Below are positions 1,692 through 62,662 of a DNA stretch of 64,000 nt, piece by piece (position 1 is the stretch's first letter; the number at the start of each line of letters is the position of its first letter). A model generated the notes under the pieces. It was not told the DNA's origin, did no database searches, and was given only the letters and a program-made list of their open reading frames with translations. This stretch comes from Synechococcus sp. C9 (lineage in GTDB: Bacteria > Cyanobacteriota > Cyanobacteriia > Gloeomargaritales > Gloeomargaritaceae). The stretch covers positions 558,001 through 622,000 of the forward strand of contig NZ_JALAAD010000001.1 in assembly GCF_022984075.1 (NCBI RefSeq), in the 5' to 3' direction. Position numbers and translations under genes: made by a program.

Positions 1692-1803
1692 GGGCATCTC
1701 TAAAAATAGGTCGCAGGGGCGTAGCCCCCGTCTGTGGTTCTCAATATAATATGGGTATCTCAGCGAAATAATCTGCCAGTGGTGACAATAAATAGAGGTG
1801 CCC
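1692..1803. repeat. MITE-like element, family B (copy 1)
   Basis: The element begins GGGCATCTCTA and ends TAGAGGTGCCC, an imperfect 11-bp terminal inverted repeat. Its core GGTCGCAGGGGCGTAGCCCC forms a GC hairpin. It encodes nothing. Together with the next two repeats it fills the gap between the pentapeptide gene and the HNH gene. Confidence 0.75.
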
Positions 1804-1826
1804 TCATATCTATCTGATTTATCTGA

Positions 1827-1937
1827 CATAGCAATCCTAAATAACAATGGAATAGGGGTCGCAGGGCACCGCCCCGTTCTGGTTCTGCAAAATTTCTGCT
1901 TGTTAATTTTGTTAATTAATCATTAGGACTACCATAG
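1827..1937. repeat. MITE-like element, family A (copy 1)
   Basis: The left end ATAGCAATCCTA and right end TAGGACTACCATAG are diverged copies of the 13-bp terminal repeat seen perfectly at 39913-40013. The core at 1856-1889 is the same GC-rich hairpin sequence as in family B, here as GGGTCGCAGGGCACCGCCCC. Confidence 0.7.
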
Positions 1938-1954: not shown

Positions 1955-1988
1955 GGGTCGCAGGGCACCGCCCCGTTCTGGTTCTGCA
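1955..1988. repeat. Exact second copy of the repeat core
   Basis: These 34 bases are identical to 1856-1889 in family A copy 1, with start points 99 bp apart. No terminal repeats surround this copy, so it is a partial duplication of the core. Confidence 0.8.
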
Positions 1989-2416: not shown

Positions 2417-2524
2417 GGGAACCTCTATTTATTGGAACCAATCATCAATCCCATCGTTGGCATACCCATATTCCCCAGAACCAAGGGCGTTGCGACTGCT
2501 AACTTTGAATTGATAGAAGTGCCC
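2417..2524. repeat. MITE-like element, family B (copy 2, degenerate)
   Basis: It starts GGGAACCTCTA and ends TAGAAGTGCCC. The core is eroded (CCAGAACCAAGGGCGTTGCGACTGC), but the sub-terminal AACTTTGAATTGATAG stretch matches copies near 52.4, 56.1 and 62.5 kb. Confidence 0.65.
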
Positions 2525-9098: not shown

Positions 9099-9220
9099 GG
9101 GCACCTCTATTATTTATTGCCACCACTGGAAGATTATTGCGCTAAAATGCCCATATTATTGAGAATTATTGAGAACCAAGACGGGGGCGGTGCCCCTGCA
9201 ACCCATTTTGAGAAGTGCCC
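9099..9220. repeat. MITE-like element, family B (copy 3)
   Basis: It starts GGGCACCTCTA and ends AGAAGTGCCC. The core at 9171-9204 reads GAGAACCAAGACGGGGGCGG followed by TGCCCCTGCAACCC. It lies in the 500-bp gap upstream of chlL; the remainder of that gap (8852-9098) is AT-rich without genes. Confidence 0.75.
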
Positions 9221-13321: not shown

Positions 13322-13432
13322 AGGCATCTCTATTTATTTGTATTACCAGAAGGTTATCGCACCAGAATACCCATACTATTGAGAACCACAGACGGGGGCT
13401 ACGCCCCTGCGACCCATTTTTAGAGATACCCT
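13322..13432. repeat. MITE-like element, family B (copy 4)
   Basis: It starts AGGCATCTCTA and ends TAGAGATACCC. The core at 13381-13415 contains GACGGGGGCTACGCCCCTGC. It lies in a 429-bp gap that also contains the next element and, at about 13245-13280, a decayed family A left half sharing GATTAGTGAACAG with the copy at 39913. Confidence 0.75.
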
Positions 13433-13436
13433 AGTA

Positions 13437-13542
13437 TTATGACAATCCTAAATCAGCATGGCACAGGGGTCGTCCTTGGTTCTGGAACATTTCTGTATGC
13501 CTACGGCACGCAATCTAACATTCATCGCATAGGATTACTATG
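13437..13542. repeat. MITE-like element, family A (copy 2)
   Basis: The left end is ATGACAATCCTAAA and the right end TAGGATTACTATG. The core is shortened to AGGGGTCGTCCTTGGTTCTGG. Only about 4 bp separate it from family B copy 4. Confidence 0.65.
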
Positions 13543-37759: not shown

Positions 37760-37878
37760 GGGCACCTCTATAAATTCAAATTTAGCGGTCGCAGGGGGGC
37801 ACCCCCGCCCTTGGTTCTGGGGAATACGAGCATTCCCAGGATGGAATTTATGCTTGGATCAAATAAATAGAGGTTCCC
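37760..37878. repeat. MITE-like element, family B (copy 5)
   Basis: It starts GGGCACCTCTA and ends TAGAGGTTCCC. The sub-terminal AAATTCAAATTTAGCGGTCG and the core with GGGGGGCACCCCC match the copies at 56060 and 62541. It occupies most of the 296-bp gap before the lipoprotein gene. Confidence 0.75.
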
Positions 37879-39912: not shown

Positions 39913-40013
39913 TATAGCAATCCTACTTGATTAGTGAACAGAAATTCTCCAGAACCAAGGACAGGGTCAGTGCCCCTGCAACCCCTATTCCATTCTCATT
40001 TAGGATTGCTATA
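39913..40013. repeat. MITE-like element, family A (best copy)
   Basis: It has perfect 13-bp terminal inverted repeats: TATAGCAATCCTA at 39913-39925 and TAGGATTGCTATA at 40001-40013. The inner core is CCAGAACCAAGGACAGGGTC followed by AGTGCCCCTGCAACCCC. It is non-coding. TA at both outer ends would fit insertion at TA. It serves as the reference copy for family A. Confidence 0.85.
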
Positions 40014-52254: not shown

Positions 52255-52383
52255 CCCACAATAGAACCAAGGACGGGGGCGGTGCCCCGGCGATGAGCAG
52301 TGAGAAGTGAGAAGCGAGATTCCCGAGAACCAAGGGCGGGGGTGCCCTCTGGGACTGCTAACTTTGAATTGATAGAGGTGCCC
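52255..52383. repeat. MITE-like element, family B, with two cores
   Basis: The right end TAGAGGTGCCC lies at 52373-52383, preceded by AACTTTGAATTGA. Two cores occur at 52264-52288 and 52327-52348, separated by GAGAAGTGAGAAGCGAGATT. The inverse of that stretch is also next to the core at 56100-56147. The left end is lost; a stray TAGAGATGCCC lies at 52089. These fill much of the 588-bp gap before the channel gene. Confidence 0.6.
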
Positions 52384-56059: not shown

Positions 56060-56184
56060 GGACACCTCTATAAATTCAAAGTTAGCGGTCGCAGGGGGGC
56101 ACCCCCGCCCTTGGTTCTAGGGAATCTCGCTTCTCGTTTCTCACTCCTCTAATTCGTCTGAGATTGCTATGGCTAGAGATACCC
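56060..56184. repeat. MITE-like element, family B (copy 8)
   Basis: It starts GGACACCTCTA and ends TAGAGATACCC. The core contains GGGGGGCACCCCCGCCC. The inner 85 bp match the inverse of 52300-52383. Confidence 0.7.
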
Positions 56185-62540: not shown

Positions 62541-62662
62541 GGGTAGCTCTATCAATTCAAAGTTAGCAGTCGCAGGGGGGCACCCCCGCCCTTGGTTCTG
62601 GAGAATTCTTGTTTGTTAATCAAGTAGGATCGCTATAACGCTAATCAAATAGGACTGCTATA
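62541..62662. repeat. Chimeric element: family B left, family A right
   Basis: The left part GGGTAGCTCTATCAATTCAA with its core is family B, but the right side carries two successive family A ends, TAGGATCGCTATA (62625-62637) and TAGGACTGCTATA (62650-62662). Confidence 0.65.

Follow-up and report, generated by a model that had tools for sequence, protein, structure and literature searches.

The window analysed here is the whole stretch of 64,000 nucleotides between positions 558,001 and 622,000 of contig C1 in the 2.96-Mb genome of Synechococcus sp. C9 (G000), a member of the Gloeomargaritales, the cyanobacteria usually regarded as the nearest relatives of plastids. It opens with the 3' part of an IS4-like transposase gene (1-783, named by eye), which terminates in TAACCCTGACCCC, and a gene ending in pentapeptide-like repeats (A-N-L; 1140-1650) lies just upstream of the first of a series of short elements that recur along the window. 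These elements fall into two MITE families, A and B, in which a left and a right arm flank a common hairpin core; they are listed below.

1692..1803, minus strand: complete family B MITE, recognised from the sequence, with the arm lengths typical of elements with two B ends (BB)
1709..1741, minus strand: core hairpin of this B element, loop of the TAC type (covariance model R1, 52.4 bits)
1827..~1937, minus strand: worn family A MITE, with an A-type left end and A-type arms around the core
1857..1886, minus strand: core hairpin of this A element, with a shortened stem (R1, 30.3 bits)
1956..1985, minus strand: extra core with a few bases of an A arm and without ends (R1, 30.3 bits)
2417..2524, plus strand: family B element with the hairpin deleted (GAACCAAGGGC-GTTGCGAC)
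9099..9220, plus strand: family B element, core at 9172-9203
13322..13431, plus strand: family B element, core at 13382-13414
13438..13542, minus strand: family A element with the hairpin deleted
37760..37878, minus strand: family B element, core at 37787-37818
39913..40013, plus strand: complete family A MITE, core at 39951-39983
52263..52383, plus strand: two tandem cores with a GTGAGAAGCGAG-type spacer between them, followed by a B right end
56060..56171, minus strand: A-core-B hybrid, at which synteny with the VI4D9 genome breaks
62541..62637, minus strand: A-core-B hybrid

The B element at 1692-1803 ends in GGGCATCTCTA and TAGAGGTGCCC and has TCAT on either side, a 4-bp duplication, while its A neighbour keeps a left end, CATAGCAATCCTA, with one mismatch and has a right end worn to TTAGGACTACCATAG; the core without ends at 1956-1985 has almost the same sequence as that at 1857-1886. 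Well-preserved copies of both families occur further along the window (A at 39913-40013; B at 9099-9220, 13322-13431 and 37760-37878). A first-pass annotation of this DNA had proposed two MITE-like families with different ends and the same core at 1692-1937, and this description holds for the genome at large: in the 2.96 Mb of sequence, a 20-mer of the core that is allowed up to three mismatches matches 225 times and the same pattern reversed matches 3 times, which excludes chance as the source of the copies. Its further statement that the families share the core "or its inverse" is right about the sharing, and the two forms are really one unit in two orientations, the orientation relative to the ends being constant within each element family.

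The core is 31-33 nt long, with the consensus (A)GAACC-A-N3-5-CGGGGGC-NNN-GCCCC-TGCGACC, of which GAACC..CGGGGGC-NNN-GCCCCTGCGACC is kept across end families as the loop and flanks vary. Across genomes the invariant parts are GAACC (or AAACC), the stem and TGCGACC, and the loop is GGT, TAC, TTC, TGC or GGC. In an alignment of 89 distinct rows, 98.5% of stem cells are paired, the G-U pair of the stem is kept in 87 rows, and two-sided changes are confined to a single stem pair (seven CG to GC); the stem can also drop one pair on both sides, and it is shortened in this way in G002 and G003. Several A and B copies have lost exactly the hairpin, and short palindromes are expected to be lost at replication. 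In some cores of VI4D9 (L092:9130-9180, L096:9250-9310), GAACCA is separated from the stem by an insert of 21-22 bp (TACACCGCAGGTGCTTCTTT).

The ends of the two families were characterised in 860 kb of the G000 genome, in stretches picked partly around cores, which contain 55 elements with two A ends (AA), 19 BB, 16 AB and 4 BA, together with partial ones. Arm lengths are sharply fixed, at 39 or 60 bases for the left A arm, 61 for the left B arm, 45 for the right A arm, and 32 or 41 for the right B arm. Family A consists of elements of ~101-122 bp without coding capacity, bounded by terminal inverted repeats TATAGCAATCCTA..TAGGATTGCTATA and inserted with duplication of TA, as at L017:17989, where TA stands on both sides of the G000 element and the empty VI4D9 site has a single TA. 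Family B ends in GGGCACCTCTA, likewise as inverted repeats, with a target duplication of fixed length, 4 bp; in four genomes, perfect 4-bp duplications flank 16/45 BB elements, as against 2/115 AA elements and 1/40 hybrids. Because the ends and the target duplications differ (TA versus 4 bp), and because A is often nested in B, at a TA, the two derive from distinct transposons: they are independent MITE families, neither being a decayed form of the other. Coreless members of family B, with a different interior, also exist, and of the seven species of the genus only four have frequent A and B ends. The left A arm has 39- and 60-base forms, as seen at L006 ~1440-1500 and in many A elements, and the longer form contains GCTTGCGTGCCGTAGGCATA, a sequence similar to other short repeats of cyanobacteria. 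Three genomes also have A-type units in tandem, three to five nearly identical copies at a spacing of ~97-106 bp (L042:9647-10040, L041:5453-5977, L071:13994-14418 and G006:C72:8-237).

A full-length, transposase-bearing transposon with A or B ends, for which the first-pass annotation had suggested looking, was not found in the sampled stretches. The IS630 elements whose ends were read, a part of the copies, have other ends, TATAGTCATTT and TATAGTCAAGC/TATAGCTAAGC, so none of these is a parental IS630 with A ends, and the label "IS630-type" for family A rests on its TA duplication and TATAG ends. One G000 IS630 begins with TATAGTCATTTT, as does family C, described below.

Among 390 cyanobacterial genomes the core is present in 12, belonging to this genus and to one other family (f23), and it occurs with at least five end families (A-E) over these two cyanobacterial families. 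Family C (G306 and G277) begins TATAGTCATTTT and has the ends TATAGTCATTTTAATTAAAA..AGCTATA; family D (G089) has the ends TTACGCGGAA..TTCCGCGTAA and a second hairpin; and family E (G002 and G003) begins TATAGCTAAGC and has the ends TATAGCTAAGCTG..CTCAGCTATA, with the same 13-base left end found on a 945-bp IS630 of G002, the transposase of which is split over two frames. A core element of G289 has a B-like end, TAGAGGTGAC, and G191 and G259 hold cores in single copy. The earlier suggestion that the core is the unit that matters is thus upheld in part, since a sequence that recurs with five different end pairs is a unit in its own right. Carriage of the core by viruses was considered and rejected, viral contigs searched for it giving no exact match.

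How one core comes to lie between different ends can be followed by comparison with VI4D9 (G005; Gloeomargaritales, OV696605.1), a genome of the same genus that is 95% identical. The first-pass annotation had raised the possibility that ends are exchanged, and G000 indeed contains both A-core-B and B-core-A hybrids, which VI4D9 traces either to nested insertion followed by loss of the DNA between two cores or to junctions between distant loci. The clear case of the former is L027:9181, an A-core-B element that in G000 follows 26 bases from the start of a B element; its VI4D9 orthologue (L083:18117-18222) is an A element nested in that B with both cores present, and the inter-core DNA has been lost in G000. 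A probable second case is L014:8403, an A-core-B hybrid within the TGTA duplication of a B element of which the B core and right arm persist in VI4D9. Two further hybrids join flanks that lie 1.4-1.7 Mb apart in VI4D9: those of L024:11248 are found there at 588.7 kb and 2291 kb, and those of L017:11561 at 2864 kb and 1417 kb, the former neighbour of the right flank of L017:11561 now ending at another A-core-B hybrid, at 2.78 Mb. The hairpin of a hybrid may be of the A type or of the B type, which places the exchange in the 8-12 matching bases to one side of the stem or the other. The hybrids lack a common duplication around them (1/40 in four genomes), and the remnant of B that is predicted next to the A end survives in only a minority of them, so nested deletion is not the sole route to their formation. 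Over four genomes the ratio of AB to BA is 24:16; an excess of AB was rejected as a general rule, as it holds for G000 and G001 and becomes weaker with the inclusion of G005 and G006. In VI4D9, positions could be assigned to both flanks for a minority of the hybrids. A flank search of VI4D9, with a query that contained repeats, scored 40 of 505 candidates.

The association with rearrangement extends beyond the individual cases. Of 46 ends of synteny chains between G000 and VI4D9, 28 fall no more than 150 bp from a core, against 6.4 expected, a comparison in which chain ends may also reflect unaligned insertions and the random control was drawn from the same partly core-chosen stretches; in the stretches that were not chosen via hybrids, the figure is 10 of 17 chain ends, against ~2.4 expected.

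We therefore consider it likely that two independent MITEs each carry one exchangeable hairpin cassette, which acts as a recombination seam and yields both hybrids and chromosomal junctions. The cassette would ride in MITEs and move alone at no visible rate, and the core would serve as a seam for recombination between elements, because in each copy the hairpin has 8-12 identical bases to its left and to its right. After insertion of an A element into the arm of a B element, loss of the sequence from one core to the other could leave an A-core-B or B-core-A hybrid, and where the cores of distant elements recombine, the resulting hybrid would be a rearrangement junction. This reading draws on the target duplications, the nested intermediates, one clear and one probable passage from a nested pair to a hybrid, the two rearranged cases, and the presence of the core with five sets of ends. 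The same swapping of ends may explain how unrelated MITEs came to share the core, although no case of a coreless MITE acquiring one was caught, and the conserved core bases are presumably recognised by something. We claim the core as a cassette and a seam and assign it no biochemical role, as it has no orientation bias, no Rfam family and modest folding.

Other explanations place the weight elsewhere. An origin of one family from the other by decay or internal rearrangement, with the core marking the common ancestry of whole elements, could appeal to the shared core and to the similar size of A and B (both ~100-120 bp); the first-pass annotation had named such decay as a result that would count against its own proposal, but it is refuted by the differing target duplications, the ends and arms are unrelated, and well-preserved copies of each family exist with A inserted inside B, so that we regard it as scarcely credible. 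It is rather unlikely, in our judgement, that the core is a mobile element of the REP or small-dispersed-repeat kind that was inserted independently into several MITE families and then amplified by them. The small dispersed repeats of cyanobacteria (Elhai et al. 2008, a study cited in PMC3116915) are reportedly very short and lie inside other repeats, as the core does, but the core differs in occupying fixed positions inside MITEs. The presence of the same core in five end families would suit such mobility, as would the few cores without A or B ends and the single-copy cores of G191 and G259, and in Anabaena variabilis GTAG-15 REP dimers inside TATAGGA..ATTTGATT palindromes (PMC3733652) provide a precedent that is like family A in its TATAG..ATTTGATT-type ends and its central hairpin repeat. 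The core has the REP trait of a short hairpin with a conserved tag and tail in many copies; however, it is a single unit and not a dimer, has no GTAG tag at the stem end and has no RAYT that we could find, and, whereas REPs are identified by a GTAG tag or a CGTC-REP structure, with a stem of 8-9 bp that has A-T pairs at the base (PMC3733652), the core reads ..GCCCCCGTC.. on the reverse strand, and its stem has seven pairs, is G-C rich and is without these A-T pairs. Against mobility, too, each family has one core position and orientation, so at most one core gain per family is needed, and in the sampled pairs no core standing alone was matched by an empty orthologous site. Movement of the core by a RAYT or Y1 transposase was rejected, as the Y1 genes of the four genomes that also have A and B are of the IS605 type and are not flanked by cores, and G002 and G003 carry the core yet have no Y1 match. 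That the species with Y1 genes are precisely the four that have A and B ends is probably a coincidence; two Y1 genes of G000, both on contig C2 (20778-21131 and 39960-40313), share the same in-frame stop.

Selection may keep the core as a functional element, such as an RNA hairpin or a binding site for a protein, with a part in regulating transcripts or in assisting transposition; we hold this to be possible but less likely than not. That GAACC, the stem and TGCGACC hardly change between distant genomes as the loop varies is consistent with such selection, as are the pairing of 98.5% of stem cells, the seven two-sided CG to GC changes at one pair, the two-sided shortening of the stem in G002 and G003, and the G-U pair kept in 87/89 rows; recent spread, however, can mimic conservation. 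The RNA hairpin role that the first-pass annotation gave as an example is conjectural: there is one stem pair with two-sided change, a search of Rfam with the core gave no matching family, the orientation of the core relative to the neighbouring gene shows no bias (A elements: 43 along, 43 against), and isolated cores of the GGT type barely exceed shuffles in folding (z -0.7), those of the TAC and TTC types reaching just z -2.3. A role as a transcription terminator or 3' end was likewise rejected for want of an orientation preference, as was identity with a known RNA family, since none is in Rfam. Core-to-core recombination could also be combined with function, in that unrelated MITE families would pass one another a functional cassette that aids their persistence and that a protein of the host or of the element recognises when it is single-stranded; we hold this version to be unlikely, and under it the core would be an accessory part common to transposons of different transposase families.

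A shared module within different ends is already known from BOX elements of Streptococcus suis, in which boxA/C and boxE/F end pairs surround the same boxB, as are hairpin repeats within palindromes from A. variabilis. BOX elements (PMC3049150) resemble A and B in being small interspersed repeats whose one internal module can be bounded by either of two pairs of end modules, but the copy number of their core varies, unlike the single hairpin found here with at least five end families in two cyanobacterial families. The RUP element of Streptococcus pneumoniae, derived from IS630-Spn1 and described in PMC3049150 as a simple repeat, is like families A, C and E a MITE of ~100 bp with IS630-type ends, and the portion of that paper on which this comparison draws reports, unlike the situation for the core-bearing MITEs, no module that it has in common with other MITE families. 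New features are the number of end families with a single hairpin in common, the finding of a nested intermediate in the genome of a sister species, and the association of the core with rearrangement junctions. The usual account of bacterial MITEs makes them decayed copies of one transposon; in the elements described here one short internal hairpin is conserved over five end sets, IS630-type and others, amid surroundings that all differ, and the sharing of accessory modules by MITEs thereby becomes testable. The hairpin marks sites of recombination between elements and of chromosome breakage and rejoining between two close species. An unrelated high-copy repeat of ~98 bases, containing AATCAAGGCTTTTTGCATCC, occurs in many places in the VI4D9 genome.
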